Shown here: positions 40,565 through 46,850 of the stretch, piece after piece | Numbering within the stretch: the stretch's first letter is position 1 | Layout: the number at the start of each line of letters is the position of its first letter | DNA from: Pseudomonadota bacterium | GTDB lineage: Bacteria > Pseudomonadota > Alphaproteobacteria > Acetobacterales > Acetobacteraceae | Reading direction: 5' to 3' | DNA length: 60,903 bases | NCBI GenBank assembly: GCA_021846225.1 | Contig: JAJZCG010000004.1 | Span: forward strand, 1 to 60,903 | Position numbers and translations under genes: made by a program | Notes under the pieces: model-generated | The model's database searches: none | Told to the model about the DNA's origin: nothing | What the model saw: only the letters and a program-made list of their open reading frames with translations

Positions 40565-40641
40565 GTCTCCGTAGCTCAGCAGGATAGAGCACAGGATTCC
40601 TAATCCTGGGGCCGTGGGTTCGAATCCCGCCGGGGACGCCA
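40565..40641 (+). tRNA. tRNA-Arg (anticodon CCU)
   Basis: A complete 77-nt cloverleaf with encoded CCA. The acceptor stem is GTCTCCG/CGGGGAC with one G-T pair. The D stem is GCTC/GAGC, the anticodon stem CAGGA/TCCTG around loop TTCCTAA, and the T stem GTGGG/CCCGC around TTCGAAT. It decodes AGG. The prophage integrase lies 125 bp downstream, so its 3' half is the probable attachment site. Confidence 0.95.
40600..40641 (+). other. Probable attL of the prophage
   Basis: The 3' end of tRNA-Arg is the usual crossover target of tyrosine integrases, and the phage int gene begins the element directly downstream. The exact core cannot be set because the right-hand copy is outside the window. Confidence 0.5.
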
Positions 40642-40765
40642 GCAATTCCGCCACTTTCCGGCTATCCGCAAAACATGTTAGACAGGGCGGTTTCGGGGTG
40701 GTTAGACACTTCCCGCCGCGCGGCGCACCCTTTTTTGCTGGCGGGGAGGACTGTCGTCCAGTCGA

Positions 40766-41848
40766 TCATTTTTTTGCTCCTTTTTGAATGCGTTTGACGG
40801 GAAGGCTGTCGATGGCGGATTGCGCGAGGGTCTTCTGGCGCGCGCCGGAGGCGTAGTAGTCCACCATCGCCGGGCTCAGGTGGCCGGTGACGGCGCCGAT
40901 CTGCAGGTTGCTCGCGCCGCCCTCGGCCATGCGGCTGGCGGCGGTGCCGCGCAGGCCGTGGAAGTGCAGGTCTGGGGCAAGATTGAGCGCCCGGCGGGTC
41001 GCGACGAAGACGTGCTTGAAGTGGTCGATCTTCCAGGCGTTTCCGTCCGGGCGGCAGCAGATGGCCGGCCGGGAGCGGTCCAGATTCGCCAGCGCGCGGC
41101 GCAAGACGGGATGCACGGGGATTTCGAGCTGCTTGGCGGCGGCGTGGCGTTTGGTTTTTGACTGGGTGACGCGGATCACCTCGCCATCGTAGGCGGCAGG
41201 CGGGAGCGCCAGCACATCGCCCAGGCGAAGGGCTGTATAGAGCGAAAGCAGGACCGGACCGGCCACCACGCCGGCGGCGGGGCTGGTCATGATCGCGATT
41301 TCGTCATCCGTCCACGGCCGGTGTTTTTTGCTGGCGGCCAGCATGCCGATCCGCACCGCCGGATTGTCCTTGCGCCATTCGCGGTCGATCGCCCAGTTCA
41401 TCAGCCGCCGGATCATCGCCACCAGGTGGTCAGCTTTGCGTGGGGTGGCGGCGAGTTCATCGCGCCGGGCCAGCACCCAGGCACGCGGCAGACTCGCGAC
41501 CGGAAGGTCGCCGTATTTCTCGATGAGCGGCGCGAATGAGCGGTCGTAGTGCAGGCGGGTCGCCGCCGTGATCTTCGAGGCGTATTCCGGACTCAGCTTA
41601 AACGCCGCGAACAGCGCCTTGAGGCTTCCCGGCAATGTCACGGCCCGCGGCTTTTTGTCGGGCTTTGCGCCGGTCTCGAACGTCGCTTTTGCGGACTCAT
41701 ATTCATGCGCGAACGCCAGCGAGCTGGGCTCGGCGTGCAGGCGGATGCGCAGGCCGCCACGCCGGTAATAGCGGAATGTTTTTCCGTGGGCGGTGTAGAC
41801 CTGAAGATATGGGAATACGACGCTAGCCACGCCGGGCCAGCTCTTCAT
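40766..41848 (-). CDS. int: Tyrosine recombinase (phage integrase)
   Basis: A 360-aa site-specific recombinase. The catalytic residues are seen as Arg in YTALRLGD, Lys in SKTKRHAA, HxxR in FHGLRGTAA, His in GHLSP, and the nucleophile Tyr in MVDYYASG. It has a SAM-like core-binding domain before the catalytic part. The start ATG at 41848 overlaps the end of the excisionase-like gene by 26 bp. The direction is toward the tRNA attachment site. Confidence 0.93.
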   Translation of the reverse strand: MKSWPGVASVVFPYLQVYTAHGKTFRYYRRGGLRIRLHAEPSSLAFAHEYESAKATFETGAKPDKKPRAVTLPGSLKALFAAFKLSPEYASKITAATRLHYDRSFAPLIEKYGDLPVASLPRAWVLARRDELAATPRKADHLVAMIRRLMNWAIDREWRKDNPAVRIGMLAASKKHRPWTDDEIAIMTSPAAGVVAGPVLLSLYTALRLGDVLALPPAAYDGEVIRVTQSKTKRHAAAKQLEIPVHPVLRRALANLDRSRPAICCRPDGNAWKIDHFKHVFVATRRALNLAPDLHFHGLRGTAASRMAEGGASNLQIGAVTGHLSPAMVDYYASGARQKTLAQSAIDSLPVKRIQKGAKK

Positions 41849-42077
41849 CGCGGAGAAGCCACGGGTTCGCGTGGCTGTCGCCGGTTCGGCCGGCGAGGCG
41901 GTCCAGCCAGCCGTCCAGCGCATCGCGCAGCCAGACGTGCTGCCGTTTACCCACCGTTACGGGCGCAGGTGCCTGCCCAGCCTTCGCCAACGCGCGCAGG
42001 CGCGCCGGGCGGATGCCGCAGTATTTCGCGGCGTCGCGGGTGGAGAGGGCGCGAGGTTCGGTCACGCGGCGCCGCAC
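41823..42077 (-). CDS. Excisionase-like helix-turn-helix protein
   Basis: An 84-aa protein from GTG 42077, or 80 aa from GTG 42065. The winged helix is STRDAAKYCGIRPARLRALAKAG, followed by QHVWLRDALDGWLDRL, an AlpA/Xis-like arrangement. Its place directly upstream of and overlapping int supports a role in excision. Confidence 0.72.
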   Translation of the reverse strand: MRRRVTEPRALSTRDAAKYCGIRPARLRALAKAGQAPAPVTVGKRQHVWLRDALDGWLDRLAGRTGDSHANPWLLRDEELARRG

Positions 42078-42092
42078 TGGATGGGCGTCATG

Positions 42093-42425
42093 TTAAACCT
42101 CCTCATCATAGGTAATCACTGCGAGGGCTTCGGCCCATGCGGGCATCTGCGGCAGGAACTCACTGGTCCAACGAAGCGGCATCGCGTCTCTGACGAGAGA
42201 CGCCAGCACCGCGCGCGACCGGCCGTTCTCATCACGCAGCCGGCCGTTCTCATCACGCAGCCGGTCGCGCTCATCACGCAGCCGGTCGCGCTCATCACGC
42301 AGCCGGTCGCGCTCATCACGCAGCCGGTCGCGCTCATCACGCAGCCGGTCGCGCTCATCGCGCAGCGCACAGCGCCCGACGCCGGGCAGTTGCTCCTGGC
42401 AGCTGAATGTGAGGCATTGGGCCAT
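42093..42425 (-). CDS. Coiled-coil protein with exact heptad repeats
   Basis: A 110-aa protein. Five copies of LRDERDR and two of LRDENGR run in tandem through residues ~20-68, giving a continuous heptad with leucine at one position and Arg/Asp/Glu elsewhere, which predicts a rod-like coiled coil. Flanking segments are unrelated (MAQCLTFSCQEQL and a Trp-containing C-terminus). The function is unknown. It is in the leftward operon between the 116-aa gene and xis. Confidence 0.7.
   Translation of the reverse strand: MAQCLTFSCQEQLPGVGRCALRDERDRLRDERDRLRDERDRLRDERDRLRDERDRLRDENGRLRDENGRSRAVLASLVRDAMPLRWTSEFLPQMPAWAEALAVITYDEEV
42220..42366. repeat. Seven 21-bp tandem repeats
   Basis: Seven head-to-tail units of 21 bp: two of the form beginning CGGCCGTTCTCATC, then five beginning CGGTCGCGCTCATC, nearly identical within each group. 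They encode the heptads of the coiled-coil protein in frame. Copy number is likely to vary by slippage in steps of seven residues. Confidence 0.95.
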
Positions 42426-42429
42426 GGCT

Positions 42430-42780
42430 TTACCTGCTCTCCGGGAGGGTGATTTTCACGAGCCGCGCCGCCTCAAGCCAGGCGTCGCCGTGTTCGAGGT
42501 CATCTTCGTCGTACCAATTTTCAGGGAGCGCGACGTTGATAAGGGTGGTGATGGCGTTCTCCAGCGCGGGGAGGCGTGCGGCCACCTGGTCGGGCCAGAC
42601 CCAGCGCACCGGGAACCGCTTGCCGTCCCGCGCCGCCATGAAGTCCGTGCTGTTAGCGCAGAGCGTGCCGCTGGTATCGAAGCAGACGGCGCGCACGTTC
42701 GGGCCTCGCCGGGTGAGCCAGGAAGACGCCTTGTTCACCCATTGCTGGAAAAAATCGAACTGCTGGTCGTGTTCAGCCAT
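42430..42780 (-). CDS. Phage hypothetical protein
   Basis: A 116-aa soluble acidic protein containing RRGPNVRAVCFDTSGTLC and VALPENWYDEDDLEHGDAWLEAA. I do not recognise a family. It starts on a TAATG overlap with the upstream gene, which supports translation. Confidence 0.62.
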   Translation of the reverse strand: MAEHDQQFDFFQQWVNKASSWLTRRGPNVRAVCFDTSGTLCANSTDFMAARDGKRFPVRWVWPDQVAARLPALENAITTLINVALPENWYDEDDLEHGDAWLEAARLVKITLPESR

Positions 42781-43043
42781 TATACTTGCTCCGTGGTGGA
42801 TTTTGGCCCGTGCCAGACATAGCCGCGGGACATGGACATGAGGACGATGATGCGAGCCTTCGTGAGCTCGCCCAGCAGGGCATCAGCCGCGCGGCGGGCG
42901 TTGATTTTGCCCAGACCGGCGTCCAACTCGTGGAACCACAGATGCACCTCGTTGCGGGTAAAGAGCCCCATTTCCGCCATGCGGGCCTTTACTGCCCCCA
43001 CAGCCTGCGGGAGTGGCCGGGTGAGTTTGACGGGCGCCCTCAT
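42780..43043 (-). CDS. Phage hypothetical protein
   Basis: An 87-aa protein from ATG 43043 (MRAPVKLTRPLPQAVGAVKA), basic and helical. Its start overlaps the stop of the 95-aa gene (ATGA) and its stop overlaps the next start (TAATG). The segment ELTKARIIVLMSMSRGYVWHG is conserved-looking, but I cannot name it. Confidence 0.6.
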   Translation of the reverse strand: MRAPVKLTRPLPQAVGAVKARMAEMGLFTRNEVHLWFHELDAGLGKINARRAADALLGELTKARIIVLMSMSRGYVWHGPKSTTEQV

Positions 43044-43327
43044 GTGGCGGGGTGGTTTCCGGCAACGGCAATCGCGGCCGCCGCGCGGCGGGTGAGGTAG
43101 ATTTCCACCGGTCCCTCGCGACCCCCGATTAACCGGCCGTCCAGCGCCCCGACGTCCTCGTGGCTGAGATTGCGCCACTTCGAGATGCGGAAATTACCGA
43201 CGAGCAACCCCTCCGGCTGGCCGCGCTCGTGAATGCCAAATGAAATGCCTCGGGCTTCGCACCAGGCGTGCGCGGCGTTGAGGGCTGCAAAATCGCCGAG
43301 CTCGTGAAAGGTTCTAACGAGAATCAT
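43040..43327 (-). CDS. Phage hypothetical protein
   Basis: A 95-aa mixed alpha/beta protein (MILVRTFHELGDFAALNAAH, GPVEIYLTRRAAAAIAV). There is no recognised domain. It begins directly after the stop of the 46-aa membrane protein and ends in an ATGA overlap. Confidence 0.6.
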   Translation of the reverse strand: MILVRTFHELGDFAALNAAHAWCEARGISFGIHERGQPEGLLVGNFRISKWRNLSHEDVGALDGRLIGGREGPVEIYLTRRAAAAIAVAGNHPAT

Positions 43328-43468
43328 CTAAACCACCGACGCCGCAAGAATGAAGCCAAGCGCGGAGGCGATGAACACCAGCGCGATCAACACGAGAATG
43401 GCGACCAGAAAACTGACGCTCACGAGGTCGTCCTCCTGCCGCTCCGGCGGTTTGGCGCGCGGCGGCAT
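43328..43468 (-). CDS. 46-aa phage membrane protein
   Basis: A small frame. An N-terminal charged stretch (MPPRAKPPERQEDD) precedes one long hydrophobic helix, SFLVAILVLIALVFIASALG. Its ATG at 43468 overlaps the stop of the 35-aa frame (TAATG), and its TAG abuts the next ATG. The amphipathic layout and exact coupling support a real inner-membrane microprotein. Confidence 0.6.
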   Translation of the reverse strand: MPPRAKPPERQEDDLVSVSFLVAILVLIALVFIASALGFILAASVV

Positions 43469-43575
43469 TACGCGCGCCACCGGCGCCACCAGGGGCGCGG
43501 ATAATGCACGAGGGACTCACCCCAGACGCGGCTGGGCGTGGTGTTGAGGATGTGGGCCAGGAGAAACGCGCCCAT
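43468..43575 (-). CDS. 35-aa phage microprotein
   Basis: A short basic, tryptophan-rich frame (MGAFLLAHILNTTPSRVWG, PRPWWRRWRA). The ATG overlaps the stop of the 24-aa frame as TGATG, and the stop overlaps the next ATG. The coupling on both sides is the main evidence. Confidence 0.45.
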   Translation of the reverse strand: MGAFLLAHILNTTPSRVWGESLVHYPRPWWRRWRA

Positions 43576-43649
43576 CACAGCACCCAGGAGAGCAACGGGA
43601 GCGCCAAAGCGATGCAAATGGCGATTTGGATGGCGGGAGGATAGCTCAT
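43575..43649 (-). CDS. 24-aa phage microprotein
   Basis: MSYPPAIQIAICIALALPLL followed by a short tail: essentially one membrane helix. It starts in an ATGA overlap with the 53-aa gene and ends in TGATG with the 35-aa frame. It is very short, so chance cannot be excluded. Confidence 0.42.
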   Translation of the reverse strand: MSYPPAIQIAICIALALPLLSWVL

Positions 43650-43807
43650 GGCTGTTCCCACCGAACGGCGGAGCGCGGCGGGAGGGCCTGGCGCTGCTCG
43701 GATTCGATGCGCCCGGCGATGATGGCGCGCAGGCGCTCGACCTCGGCGATCAGCTCATCTGTGGTCCAGCTGGCGTATTTGTTGGCGTGCGGCAAAGCTG
43801 CCTCCAT
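43646..43807 (-). CDS. 53-aa phage protein, first gene of the leftward operon
   Basis: A small helical protein: YASWTTDELIAEVERLRAII. Its ATG at 43807 is the first after the pL promoter (-10 at 43822-43827), leaving a leader of about 8 nt. It is coupled to the next frame by ATGA. The helical stretch could form a short coiled coil. No family was recognised. Confidence 0.58.
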   Translation of the reverse strand: MEAALPHANKYASWTTDELIAEVERLRAIIAGRIESEQRQALPPRSAVRWEQP

Positions 43808-43821
43808 CGGTTGATGGGGGT

Positions 43822-43866
43822 ATTAAAGACGGACAATAGTCCGCGTGTCAATGTCTATATGCGGAC
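43822..43866 (-). promoter_or_regulatory. Leftward phage promoter pL with operator
   Basis: On the minus strand, -35 TTGACA (43846-43851) and -10 TTTAAT (43822-43827) are spaced 18 bp. The spacer holds the dyad CGGACAATAGTCCG (43830-43843), matching the pR operator at 18 of 20 positions over the extended site. A half-site ATGCGGAC lies at 43859-43866. CI should bind here and shut off the leftward operon. Confidence 0.75.
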
Positions 43867-43901
43867 GATATTACTCTTTTGTTTGTGGTGGTCAGGTATC
43901 G

Positions 43902-43944
43902 TGTAGCTACAATTTACTTGACGAATTTACGATGTGTAGCTACA
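43902..43944 (+). promoter_or_regulatory. Promoter and paired palindromes of the BrnTA module
   Basis: The 10-bp palindrome TGTAGCTACA occurs twice, at 43902-43911 and 43935-43944, 33 bp apart. Between them is TTGACG (43918-43923), and a possible -10 TACAAA begins at 43941, overlapping the second palindrome. This fits autorepression by the BrnA ribbon-helix-helix antitoxin. The -10 would place the start of transcription near the brnT ATG at 43952. Confidence 0.6.
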
Positions 43945-43951
43945 AATAGCT

Positions 43952-44206
43952 ATGATCATTTGCTGGGATGAGCCGAAGCGCGCCGCCAACCTTGATAAGC
44001 ATGGGTTGGATTTCGCGGCGGTTGATCTGGATTTTTTTGCGGAGGCGCTTGTTCTCCCGGCAAAGAAGGGAAGGTTCAGGGCTGTCGGCTATTTGGCGGA
44101 TGTTTTGATTGTGGTTGTGATTTTCGCGCCGCTGGGCCGGGAGGCGGTATCCATCATCAGCTTGCGGGCCGCCAAAGCCAAGGAAAGGAGCTTGCTCAAT
44201 GGCTAA
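43952..44206 (+). CDS. brnT: BrnT family toxin
   Basis: An 84-aa RelE-fold ribonuclease toxin. It has the family N-terminus CWDEPKRAANLDKHGLDFAAV and the C-terminal SIISLRAAKAKERSLL. BrnT cleaves RNA and slows growth when unbound. Its end overlaps brnA by 8 bp. It lies between pL and cI in the prophage immunity region, an uncommon place for such a pair. Confidence 0.87.
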   Translation: MIICWDEPKRAANLDKHGLDFAAVDLDFFAEALVLPAKKGRFRAVGYLADVLIVVVIFAPLGREAVSIISLRAAKAKERSLLNG

Positions 44207-44489
44207 AAACAAGTTTGTGAAAGACCGTGGTTATTCTCAGGCAGATTGGGATGAGGTTGCTGACAGCCCAGAGATCACCGCCCGGGAGTTCGCGCAGGCG
44301 AAACCTTTTGGCGAGGTGCTCCCGCAATTCGCCGAGGCGCTGAAGGGGCGGGGCAAGCAGCGGGCGCCGACCAAGGAGCTGATCTCATTGCGGCTGAGCC
44401 GGGCGGTGATCGCCCGGTTCCGCGCGCTGGGGCCTGGCTGGCAAACCCGCATTGATGAGGTGCTGACGAAGGCGGCGCAGGAGCTTTAG
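44199..44489 (+). CDS. brnA: BrnA family antitoxin
   Basis: A 96-aa partner of BrnT with a C-terminal ribbon-helix-helix: ELISLRLSRAVIARFRALGPGWQTRIDEVL. It neutralises BrnT and represses the operon. A strong AGGAAAGGAG ribosome-binding site lies inside brnT. It is convergent with the lipoprotein gene. Confidence 0.87.
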   Translation: MAKNKFVKDRGYSQADWDEVADSPEITAREFAQAKPFGEVLPQFAEALKGRGKQRAPTKELISLRLSRAVIARFRALGPGWQTRIDEVLTKAAQEL

Positions 44490-44528
44490 TTTTTTGATGT
44501 AGTTTGGCGAATGCGGGGCGCAGGCGTG

Positions 44529-44981
44529 CTAATCGTTGGACAGGCCGGTATATGTTGCTGGGTGGGAACCATCAACGCACATCGCGTCCCAATATACCGC
44601 CTCAAAAACAGTTTGGGGCCGAGCGGTTCCCGCTGACGTGAGAGTAGCTTGGTCCTTACCGTCGTCTATAACGGCGCTCGTTGCGCTTAGAATGTTCTGC
44701 TCGTCGTTGAGGACAAGCGAGACTACAAATCGGCTTGCCCCAGCGTAGGCTCCGAAGCTATTTTTCGCGTTAACAAACCCGCACACCGAGACGTTTTGAT
44801 AGCCGTCTTTTCCGGGAGGGGCTTTAATTAAAAACTCACCCGAAAACTGCCCAGAAGAAGGGTCCTTCAAAATACTTGAAACGGCGGACTCTGCTGAGGA
44901 AATTATTGCAGAATCAGACACTTCGCAGCCAGAAAGAAAAGCGAGGGCTATAAGCCCAAAAACACGTATAGCAGCGTTCAT
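44529..44981 (-). CDS. Prophage lipoprotein coupled to the repressor gene
   Basis: A 150-aa protein with a signal peptide and lipobox FLSGC (Cys19). The mature part has SAVSSILKDPSSGQFSGEF and VSVCGFVNAKNSFGAYAG. The start overlaps the cI stop (ATGA), so it is made in the lysogen together with CI. A surface-acting superinfection-exclusion or conversion role is inferred from location and lipidation only. Confidence 0.75.
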   Translation of the reverse strand: MNAAIRVFGLIALAFLSGCEVSDSAIISSAESAVSSILKDPSSGQFSGEFLIKAPPGKDGYQNVSVCGFVNAKNSFGAYAGASRFVVSLVLNDEQNILSATSAVIDDGKDQATLTSAGTARPQTVFEAVYWDAMCVDGSHPATYTGLSND

Positions 44982-45640
44982 ATAGTCCTCCCCAGCCAGA
45001 CGACCCGGCCTAATACAAAAACGTTTTCATCCGATACACCCGCCCAGGACTGCGCGGCCGGGTTATCACTGGAAATTGATAGGGACTTGTCTAAAGGGCT
45101 GCGGCTGACGCGCTTGACTTGGACCTCGTGGTCGGCAGCCAGGACATAGAGGCCATCCCGGCCGATGTGTTTGATGCTCATGTCTACCAGCACGTCATCG
45201 CCGTTCAGCAGGGTTGGCGCCATGCTGTCACCATGAACCTTGAGGATGGCGAGATTTTCCACCGCGACACGAGTGACGCTGCGCAGCCAGTCCCGCCTGA
45301 AGAGGTTGTAGGCCAGTGGGGCACCGTGCTCTGCGTTCAGTGAGCCGGGCCCGGCAGAGACGGCGGCTTCATAAACTGCGATCGAGGCATAGGATTCGCC
45401 CGCGAATTCAATGCCGGTTTCCTTGCGCTCCAATTCGTCGGGTCCGATCAACTCAGCCGAAGTTATATTCAAGGCAGCCGCGATCTTAGCTAGCTTTTCC
45501 GCCCCCGGCATCTTGCCTTGCTTTATGGTGCGCACCGCATCCGGCGAAAGGCCGGCCGAAAGAGAAACTTGGCGTGCGTTCGTTCCAAGTTGCGCCATAC
45601 GTTCGTTGATTTTGAGCCAAAGCCGTTCTGCGGGGGTCAT
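44978..45640 (-). CDS. cI: CI-type repressor with S24 self-cleavage domain
   Basis: A 220-aa repressor. The N-terminal helix-turn-helix is NARQVSLSAGLSPDAVRTIKQGK. A likely Ala-Gly cleavage site is in AAVSAGPGS. The Ser of the Ser/Lys dyad is in HGDSMAPTLLNGDDVLV and the Lys in EVQVKRV. SOS-linked induction through RecA is expected. Starts at 45640, 45658 and 45715 are possible; 45640 is preferred because the frame upstream overlaps operators and the -10 at 45645-45650. Confidence 0.9.
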   Translation of the reverse strand: MTPAERLWLKINERMAQLGTNARQVSLSAGLSPDAVRTIKQGKMPGAEKLAKIAAALNITSAELIGPDELERKETGIEFAGESYASIAVYEAAVSAGPGSLNAEHGAPLAYNLFRRDWLRSVTRVAVENLAILKVHGDSMAPTLLNGDDVLVDMSIKHIGRDGLYVLAADHEVQVKRVSRSPLDKSLSISSDNPAAQSWAGVSDENVFVLGRVVWLGRTI

Positions 45641-45718
45641 GCGGATTATATGCCGCATATAGTAGGGGGCGTCATGCGGCTTATTTTCCGTTGACAGACG
45701 GACAAAAGTCCGCATAAT
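45639..45718. promoter_or_regulatory. Right operator region with pR and pRM
   Basis: pR (plus strand) is TTGACA at 45691-45696 and CATAAT at 45713-45718, spacer 16. The spacer holds the dyad CGGACAAAAGTCCG (45699-45712). Two related sites follow toward cI: ATGCGG...CCGT at 45674-45691, and the palindrome ATGCGG-N8-CCGCAT at 45639-45658. The last covers a minus-strand TATAAT (45645-45650), the probable pRM -10. The layout mirrors lambda OR1-OR3. Confidence 0.75.
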
Positions 45719-45725
45719 AGTTCAC

Positions 45726-45977
45726 ATGGATCATAGAGAAAAACTTCTCGTGCTGGTTGATGGCTACTGCGGGCATACGCACCGATCTGAGGCGAGGGTT
45801 TCGACTGTCGTGCTGAATGGCGGTCATCGGATCAAAAGCATTCGCGGCGGCGGCAGTTTCACCGTCGCCACGTATGAACGCGCCATGGCGTGGTTTTCGG
45901 ATCATTGGCCTGCGGGTCTGGCGTGGCCGGAGGGTGTTGAGCGCCCTCCACAGCAGAAAAAGGGGAACGCGGCATGA
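45726..45977 (+). CDS. First rightward early protein, Cro-position
   Basis: An 83-aa small protein starting 8 bp after the pR -10. The segment RVSTVVLNGGHRIKSIRGGGSFTVATYERAMAWFSDHWP looks like a compact DNA-binding fold seen in related phage proteins. By position it would be the Cro analogue, but that is an inference. It overlaps the next gene by 4 bp. Confidence 0.62.
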   Translation: MDHREKLLVLVDGYCGHTHRSEARVSTVVLNGGHRIKSIRGGGSFTVATYERAMAWFSDHWPAGLAWPEGVERPPQQKKGNAA

Positions 45978-46180
45978 GCGTTGCCAGCCACCATTTCCCA
46001 GCCCTTGGGCCGCTCTGTTGCGACGAATGCGCCGCCGCGCGGCGGCCGGCTGCGTGGACGGCTGAGCAGGTCCGGGATGCCTGGTGGCTATACCGCTCCG
46101 GCGTGCCGCTGCCGGAAATCGCCGATGCCATCGGCGTTGGCCTGTCGCGCGTGCAGGCGCTGCTGCTGGTGGCGGCTTAA
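45974..46180 (+). CDS. Small helix-turn-helix phage protein
   Basis: A 68-aa protein with a probable HTH, GVPLPEIADAIGVGLSRVQALL, at its C-terminus, preceded by CCDECAAARR. It is coupled by ATGA to the gene before and ends directly at the next ATG. Confidence 0.6.
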   Translation: MSVASHHFPALGPLCCDECAAARRPAAWTAEQVRDAWWLYRSGVPLPEIADAIGVGLSRVQALLLVAA

Positions 46181-46444
46181 ATGGGATTGCTGGCATCTGA
46201 CAACGCGCCATGGAGCGATGAGGACAAGCGCCTGGCAAAGACGTGGTCCGCTGCCGGCATGAAGACGGTGGAGATCGCGCAATTGCTCGGGCGTTCCGCC
46301 CAGCAGGTCGGCGCGTTTATCCGGTTGGATTTAAGCGGCGCTGGGCGGCGTGTGTGCTTGACCTGCGCCAGGCCGTTCGCATCCGAGGGAATCCACAACC
46401 GCATGTGCACTCCCTGCAAAATCGCCTCCAGAGGTGCGGCATGA
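46181..46444 (+). CDS. SANT/HTH-like protein with zinc ribbon
   Basis: An 87-aa protein. The N-terminal APWSDEDKRLAKTWSAAG and KTVEIAQLLGRSAQQVGAFI resemble a Myb/GcrA-type helix-turn-helix. The C-terminus has four cysteines in CLTCARPF and MCTPCK, a likely zinc ribbon. It is probably a phage transcription factor. Confidence 0.65.
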   Translation: MGLLASDNAPWSDEDKRLAKTWSAAGMKTVEIAQLLGRSAQQVGAFIRLDLSGAGRRVCLTCARPFASEGIHNRMCTPCKIASRGAA

Positions 46445-46563
46445 TGCGCGATCTGATGGGCGCTCTGCTGGTTCTGGTGATTGCCGCGGGGGTTTTCCGT
46501 GTGGCTGACGCCGTGAGCCATTATGCCGTCTCCTCTCAATTTTGCCGGGATATCGGCCAATGA
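46441..46563 (+). CDS. 40-aa phage membrane protein
   Basis: A short frame with one hydrophobic helix, MGALLVLVIAAGVFRVADAV. The ATG overlaps the previous stop as ATGA. The function is unknown. Confidence 0.5.
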   Translation: MMRDLMGALLVLVIAAGVFRVADAVSHYAVSSQFCRDIGQ

Positions 46564-46850
46564 ACCCCGCAACACACCGGCGCGCGTGTGTTGGTTCAAC
46601 GGGTGACGCGCGCGCCTTTGATGTTCCCTCCCTGAACTTGCCCGGCGAGCTGGCTATGCCCGCTCGCCGGGTCTTTTCTGGTGTATCCGCGCGGCGGCTG
46701 GCGGCCCGTGAAGCGCGGGGCGGTGTTGAGATTACCAAGGGTTGCGGCCTTCTCCATGTCCAGAAACATGGAGAAAACGGATGCACAACAATAGCGGGGA
46801 TCACCACCAGAGAAGCGGAAAAGTCCCGCATATTCAGGGGAGGCTGGTGA
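46560..46850 (+). CDS. Doubtful 96-aa frame in a structured region
   Basis: It is open from ATG 46560, which overlaps the previous stop, to a TGA that overlaps the next ATG. However, the sequence runs through an intrinsic terminator-like hairpin and a second hairpin, and the peptide has no clear structure. The coupling favours translation; the hairpins favour a regulatory RNA segment. Confidence 0.3.
   Translation: MNPATHRRACVGSTGDARAFDVPSLNLPGELAMPARRVFSGVSARRLAAREARGGVEITKGCGLLHVQKHGENGCTTIAGITTREAEKSRIFRGGW
46641..46677 (+). terminator. Early-operon intrinsic terminator (tR-like)
   Basis: CCCGGCGAGC and GCTCGCCGGG form a perfect 10-bp stem with an 11-nt loop, followed by TCTTTTCT. It lies inside the rightward early operon, the place of lambda tR1. 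Confidence 0.62.
46751..46774 (+). repeat. Second hairpin after the early terminator
   Basis: TCTCCATGT and ACATGGAGA form a perfect 9-bp stem with a 6-nt loop, about 75 bp before the next HTH gene. It could act as an RNA structural or protein-binding element. Confidence 0.45.

Follow-up and report, generated by a model that had tools for sequence, protein, structure and literature searches.

A 60,903-nucleotide contig from an alphaproteobacterium of the Acetobacteraceae (assembly GCA_021846225.1, contig JAJZCG010000004.1), the whole of which is referred to here as the window, carries on its minus strand a closely packed row of eight small genes, named A to H, that runs into an excisionase-like gene (xis) and a tyrosine integrase gene (int) (Table 1). 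All eight frames listed in an initial annotation of this DNA (53, 24, 35, 46, 95, 87, 116 and 110 aa) are present, from 43807 to 42093 and at exactly these lengths. The xis product resembles helix-turn-helix proteins, with a match to PF12728 (E 6.9e-6; its 26.7 bits lie slightly below the cut-off of 27) and to the excisionase and regulator family phrog_66 (1.3e-6). A predicted leftward promoter, pL, lies upstream of A, followed at some distance by a repressor gene of the S24/CI type and a second, rightward promoter, pR. The arrangement looks real but of a familiar kind.

The start codons of the small genes overlap or abut the preceding stop codon (distances of -4, -1 or 0), as expected of a termination-reinitiation chain, at six of the seven junctions. 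The initial annotation had described nearly every junction of the row as exact, which holds for these six but not for G and H, separated by a 4-nt gap, nor for H and xis, where 15 nt precede the listed GTG start at 42077; a nine-codon frame could bridge the latter gap to the alternative xis start through GTGA, although this is suggestive only. The xis and int genes overlap by 26 nt. In a chance test, the chain was followed from the stop codon of the 53-aa frame through exact junctions only, with frames of at least 20 aa, and compared with dinucleotide shuffles; here as in the second test below the first ATGA was held fixed, which favours chance. The real sequence yields six links, both with ATG only and with ATG, GTG and TTG as starts. 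Among 3000 shuffles with ATG only, 0, 1, 2, 3 and 4 links were reached in 738, 1952, 267, 36 and 7 cases and five links in none, while with all three start codons at least five links occurred in 29 and at least six in 7. The whole chain is not a product of chance, which the initial annotation had called very unlikely, but for the tiny frames by themselves the argument from coupling is weaker (about 1 in 90): exact tiling from the stop of the 53-aa frame to the start of the 95-aa frame arose in 454 of 40,000 shuffles with ATG (1.1%), in 1207 with ATG, GTG or TTG (3.0%), and in 2329 when looser junctions were admitted. Exact coupling is ordinary in such phages and no special sign, because it recurs in relatives (see below) and in the rightward early operon of the same phage (45726-47098, plus strand), where all five links followed are exact, including that of a 40-aa membrane frame at 46441-46563.

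Table 1. Coordinates of the leftward operon, its control region and the attachment site in the window.
Feature	Position	Strand	Remarks
attL, 32-bp 3' end of tRNA-Arg(CCT)	40610..40641	+	repeated at C89:8276-8307 (attR)
Tyrosine integrase (int), 360 aa	40766..41848	-	ATG 41848; PF00589 E 3.9e-12; phrog_1 1.7e-31
xis-like helix-turn-helix protein	41823..42077	-	84 aa (GTG 42077) or 80 aa (GTG 42065)
Possible 9-codon bridging frame MTPIQCGAA	42062..42091	-	ATG 42091; ends GTGA on alternative xis start
Gene H, 110 aa	42093..42425	-	4-nt gap to G; coiled coil with heptad repeat LRDERDR
Gene G, 116 aa	42430..42780	-	TAATG with F; conserved phage domain F..F..WV..A.....C.D..G..C....DFM.ARD...FPV
Gene F, 87 aa	42780..43043	-	ATGA with E; orphan, mainly helical prediction at low confidence
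Gene E, 95 aa	43040..43327	-	zero spacing with D; small family, nameless in the searched libraries
Gene D, 46 aa	43328..43468	-	TAATG with C (1 nt); strong C-terminal membrane helix (predicted)
Gene C, 35 aa	43468..43575	-	TGATG with B (1 nt)
Gene B, 24 aa	43575..43649	-	ATGA with A (4-nt overlap); one predicted membrane helix
Gene A, 53 aa	43646..43807	-	first gene, without Shine-Dalgarno motif
Predicted pL	43822..43851	-	TTGACA (43851-43846), 18-nt spacer, TTTAAT (43827-43822); same design as pR
Predicted left operator CGGACAATAGTCCG	43830..43843	.	within the pL spacer
S24/CI-type repressor	44978..45640	-	PF00717 1.7e-14, PF01381 3.8e-5, phrog_4 1.8e-36; between pL and pR

The initial annotation had placed a pL before the leftward genes, and this is supported by promoter-like hexamers together with an operator-like motif shared with the rightward early promoter: the pL spacer holds CGGACTATTGTCCG, and that of pR (TTGACA-16-CATAAT at 45691-45718) holds CGGACAAAAGTCCG. 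The shared motif CGGACN4GTCCG (pattern CGGACNNNNGTCCG) occurs at three places in the 2,688,031-base genome, as against 21 for the backward control pattern, two of them being the pL spacer and pR (45699-45712). The third palindrome lies off this contig, on contig C119 of the genome (G000; C119:10140-10153). Given this shared motif, one S24/CI-type repressor, encoded between the two promoters, probably controls both; in the viral_contigs collection this repressor has one relative, at 35% identity (L006). Judged by spacing, transcription from pL would set in about 8 nt ahead of the first ATG and that from pR at or next to its ATG, and the rightward early operon is predicted to be leaderless; its first gene, like A, has no Shine-Dalgarno motif. 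We consider it probable that genes A to H form an early leftward operon of the lambda exo-xis-like accessory type, transcribed from pL and translated largely by termination-reinitiation.

Only E and G yielded relatives; several of these lie in coupled operons, and in three cases the operon runs towards an integrase or recombinase gene. The relative of E, of 108 aa and with 45-48% identity (48% over 75 residues, E 2.9e-17), comes from one (G200) of 397 genomes of the bacterial family; a second match, in G193 (E 3.6e-4, internal TGA), was weak and not used. With E as the query, no relative beyond its own genome appeared in viral_contigs, among 147 related genomes or in phages, and the G200 homologue likewise has none in phages; the only kin of E in viral contigs is a copy identical to that of G200, and locus L029, all 4485 bases of which match L028 at 100% identity, is no independent case. 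G is more widespread (L002, L005, L007-L021), with matches in one viral contig, one of the 147 other genomes, 13 loci of genome_contigs and seven plasmids. Against phages, 11 records matched at E<=1, namely RHph_TM3_3_3 strongly (5e-11), two phiLM21 records weakly (6e-2) and eight mycobacteriophage records at chance level; the phiLM21 protein resembles that of RHph_TM3_3_3 over its first half and then departs. Exact links were counted at the ten loci with a standalone type of G (L012, L015, L016 and L018-L021 being set aside). Downstream of G, seven of the ten had an exact link to a frame of 20 aa or longer and three had none (L009, L011, L013), a count in which the frames at L008 and L017 are dubious and L005 and L010 yield the same protein; upstream, five loci had such a link by the script's rule and five had none. 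Downstream of G at L009 come a hydrophobic frame of 35 aa, a gene with a TSCPD domain and one for a serine recombinase. L005 belongs to a genome of the same bacterial family as the window, and its G protein is identical to that of L010, from Ameyamaea chiangmaiensis; on this ground the host is referred to here as Acetobacteraceae-like.

Codon usage was scored by log-odds, with 25 long genes of the window (10,375 codons) serving both to train and to calibrate the model, so that its fractions are rough. The annotated frame ranks first of six in seven of the eight genes. Among wrong-frame windows, a score as high is reached by a fraction of 0.003 for A (0.30%), 0.068 for B, 0.030 for C, 0.0000 for D (up to 4000 windows), 0.020 for E, 0.0005 for F, 0.0000 for G and 0.0018 for H, and the fraction of real-gene windows scoring no higher is 0.14, 0.08, 0.08, 0.50, 0.001, 0.04, 0.07 and 0.009, respectively. 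E is ambiguous on codons alone, its antisense frame reaching 16.1 bits vs 14.1 for the annotated one, but its reading frame is settled because the G200 homologue lies in the same frame. As the initial annotation stated, two of the tiny frames have predicted membrane helices, with best 19-residue Kyte-Doolittle means of 2.3 (B) and 3.2 (D), and C has none (0.6). A 49-aa version of C with a TTG start, which would add a membrane helix, is not favoured, the added part scoring -4.7 bits. The 21-bp tandem repeat within H (42228-42366, 6.6 copies, 96% match) encodes a charged heptad coiled coil, and its copy number could vary between strains.

For the three shortest frames, which the initial annotation had taken as probably translated, these scores separate D, likely to be translated, from B and C, for which translation is plausible. 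This is where a different account of the locus finds its footing: the operon would be real, yet B, C and perhaps D would yield no useful proteins, the 320-nt stretch from A to E being a leader or linker tiled by chance, or one in which translation merely keeps ribosomes moving to E. The tiling frequencies of 1.1 to 3.0% agree with it, as do B and C, whose codon scores are matched by 6.8% and 3.0% of wrong-frame windows and which have no relatives. It fits poorly with D, which combines an unmatched codon score with a strong membrane helix, with the annotated frame being the best of six for B, C and D alike, and with the small hydrophobic frames that stand first or second downstream of G in L002, in L005/L010 (a single case) and in L009, together with one in the rightward operon of the same phage. 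On balance we regard this account as rather unlikely, and the preferred reading remains an operon in which most of the small frames are genes.

None of the eight proteins has a specific match in Pfam or PHROGs, nor do A, D, E, F, G and H in NCBIfam or PADLOC, nor E, F and G among PDB sequences; for B, C and H the comparison covered Pfam, PHROGs (for H also NCBIfam and PADLOC) and the fetched loci. The better-scoring matches all fall on H and are of the coiled-coil type (e.g., phrog_3671, 4e-6). Those in PADLOC comprise this coiled coil and a marginal hit to A (0.046) and lend no support to an anti-defence role, while Pfam matches of G to Ponericin (0.017) and of D to LapA (0.41) were under the cut-offs and taken as chance. 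A winged-helix idea for F was dropped, its single-sequence model consisting of three helices at a mean predicted local distance difference test score (pLDDT) of 51.7. The one usable model was that of G (mean pLDDT 75.4; block means of 75-96 for residues 1-70 and below 60 beyond). Compared with PDB folds it gave 59 matches at E<=10 but none at E<=0.001, and BFVD yielded a single match within that limit (9.4e-7), to a nameless protein, 44% identical, that is probably a relative.

These searches bear on the suggestion of the initial annotation that early leftward genes often encode anti-defence or take-over proteins. A leftward early operon, with a probably repressor-controlled promoter and mostly coding frames, is supported, but the proposed function is not: no specific match pointing to it appeared in Pfam, PHROGs, NCBIfam, PADLOC or, for E, F and G, PDB sequences, where PADLOC covers defence rather than anti-defence proteins and the libraries would miss a protein of an unknown kind. 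A cassette in which each small protein blocks one host defence or process would suit an early-operon position and orphan genes, and one lambda protein from exo-xis, Orf73, reportedly reprograms transcription in the host (PMC9239242); set against the search results and the model of G, with no PDB match at E<=0.001, we consider such a cassette improbable and, by analogy, prefer a role of the lambda exo-xis kind. Still less probable in our view is that the row is what remains of a once larger recombination operon (RecT, nuclease, methylase), its leftover genes having no present use. Genes for RecT, ERF, exonuclease or methylase do occur in operons of E and G relatives, and none of them is recognisable among the eight, but the frames are intact and closely packed, match no recombination family and are mostly coding-like in codon usage.

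From the frames, their junctions, the paired operator-like sites, the promoter-like spacing, the integration site and the homology of E and G, we infer the following course of events for the accessory operon. A temperate tailed phage would reside in the tRNA-Arg gene of an Acetobacteraceae-like bacterium, held in lysogeny by the S24/CI-type repressor bound to the palindromic operator in the pL spacer and to the matching one in pR. On inactivation of the repressor, pL would fire and give one mRNA spanning A-B-C-D-E-F-G-H-xis-int; this mRNA having almost no 5' leader, ribosomes would probably start near its end, on A, and reach most of the downstream genes by termination-reinitiation at the ATGA, TGATG, TAATG and zero-gap junctions; at G and H, which carry GGAG motifs, initiation would be new or enhanced. 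The predicted products are two single-helix membrane peptides, a coiled coil, the conserved phage domain of G and the small family of E. As accessory proteins they probably adjust, upon induction, the switch between lysis and lysogeny or the physiology of the host, in the manner of the lambda exo-xis genes, and the end of the operon would supply Xis and Int for excision. Reinitiation at overlaps of -4 and -1 is described as shown experimentally in Escherichia coli and Haloferax (PMC6728339; PMC10666635). In a survey of 1,695 species these two distances are given as by far the commonest, and gaps of about 20 nt as almost abolishing coupling in the tested pairs (PMC10666635); removal of the Shine-Dalgarno motif is reported to alter reinitiation to a variable extent in both organisms (PMC6728339). 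A bolder version, which we regard as improbable, would have a near-leaderless mRNA with a single ribosome entry produce micro-proteins in fixed ratios by serial reinitiation, the 24- and 46-aa membrane peptides resetting host physiology or excluding rivals at induction, and G and E representing uncharacterised early families, G as a freestanding relative of a Gp37/Gp68 tail module.

Several observations weigh against an accessory operon translated in this way and call for caution. A, D and F are orphans in the searches made of each (A in viral_contigs; D, with a hit only to its own genome, among the 397 family genomes; F, with the same result there, also in phages and viral_contigs), the integrase has no relative in viral_contigs and the DNA from 40700 to 46600 none in phages; moreover, the neighbours of E and G vary among phages, and a relative of the whole operon was not found. 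By the standard of real genes of the window, E and H score low on codons (0.1% and 0.9% of real windows do no better), and the scores of B and C, for which no relatives were found, are weak. A generic consensus promoter scan listed pR only (one site; shuffle mean 1.5), and it missed pL because the TTTAAT hexamer lacks the demanded A at position 2. Genes B to E have only GGTG, 4-20 nt upstream, a motif found at four of the six genes B-G vs 62 of 559 background ATGs in the prophage part, a comparison made after the pattern was noticed; de novo initiation on such weak Shine-Dalgarno motifs, instead of pure reinitiation, is possible. Finally, no lambda N-like antiterminator was recognised, nut-like sites not having been searched for.

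The integration site lies in the 3' end of a tRNA-Arg(CCT) gene at 40565-40641. The copy of the 32 bp on a second contig (C89) is not a tRNA gene by ARAGORN; it is flanked on one side by genes for a holin (phrog_3427, 7.7e-23) and for a minor tail protein (phrog_1924, 1.9e-28), and a frame on its other side has no PHROGs match. Positions 40610-60903 of the window (contig C71) and C89 as far as 8307 probably represent both ends of a single prophage, at least 28 kb long, which would mean that the two contigs belong together. Two further features lie between pL and the repressor gene. A BrnT/BrnA toxin-antitoxin pair (43952-44489, plus strand; PF04365 4.7e-15, PF14384 1.4e-20) diverges from pL, and two copies of TGTAGCTACA (43902-43911 and 43935-43944) flank and overlap its predicted promoter; being the only two in the genome and situated at this promoter, they are therefore probably BrnA operators. 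A brnT-brnA pair has been reported in Acetobacter prophages (PMC9379143). The other is a 150-aa protein (44529-44981, minus strand), lipoprotein-like by eye, which has an ATGA overlap with the stop of the repressor gene, a low G+C content at third codon positions (0.49) and good matches to PHROGs of unknown function (phrog_2320, 6.5e-20); it is a candidate for a gene expressed in the lysogen.

Being compact, the operon lends itself to experiments on serial translational reinitiation and on very small phage proteins, which annotation easily overlooks, and E and G emerge as two early families worth targeting functionally. Among the relatives, the leftward operon of Rhizobium phage RHph_TM3_3_3 holds a G homologue and is similarly tight, with 13 of 14 annotated junctions being 4-nt or 1-nt overlaps. 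Sinorhizobium phage phiLM21 has its G homologue separated from xis-int by two genes and is less tight, 4 of 11 junctions being 4-nt overlaps. Unlike the operon described here, both stretches also contain ERF/RecT, exonuclease, HNH, ASCH or DHFR genes, and neither gave a match to A-F or H. In G200, from the same bacterial family, the E homologue is overlapped on both sides in a prophage-like operon between recT and a tyrosine integrase gene, with six consecutive 4-nt overlaps from the recT stop, upstream of the integrase; its other neighbours differ, however, and the other small genes have no convincing match (best C, E 0.004, in a different frame).

G also connects to the Gp37/Gp68 family (PF07505, DUF5131). 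A G-like segment is part of longer frames in L012, L015, L016, L018, L019 and L020; in L012 (Cupriavidus), L018 (Frigidibacter) and L019 (Piscinibacter), with PF07505 E values of 8.3e-88, 9.4e-100 and 6.2e-81, it lies near the C-terminal end, and all seven plasmid matches bear the Gp37/Gp68 name. The place of the segment in these DUF5131 proteins hints that G may be a detached module of this family, for which a literature search found no paper. G by itself has no PF07505 match at E<=1 and is a small protein that stands alone, lacking the remainder of a DUF5131 protein.

The nearest analogue is the lambda exo-xis region (orf60a, orf63, orf61, orf73, ea22, ea8.5), because of position and regulation. 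In both, small genes precede xis and int in leftward early transcription, here predicted, from a promoter that apparently shares a single repressor with pR; the shared operator motif, the CI-type repressor gene between the promoters and the series of small genes that runs into xis and int are all found in the window. The small genes of lambda exo-xis are reported to affect lysogenization and induction (PMC4195576; PMC10869804). In contrast to lambda, no red genes or N-like antiterminator were recognised, the coupling is very tight and the start predicted to be near-leaderless, where lambda's own junctions were not measured, and the Pfam and PHROGs scans revealed no common family, lambda proteins not having been compared directly. 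We suggest that the operon works like lambda exo-xis, without filing it as a homologue, and that the plan known from lambda, in which a left operon under repressor control has tiny accessory genes before xis-int, extends to the phage of an Acetobacteraceae-like host, despite proteins unrelated to those of lambda in these scans.

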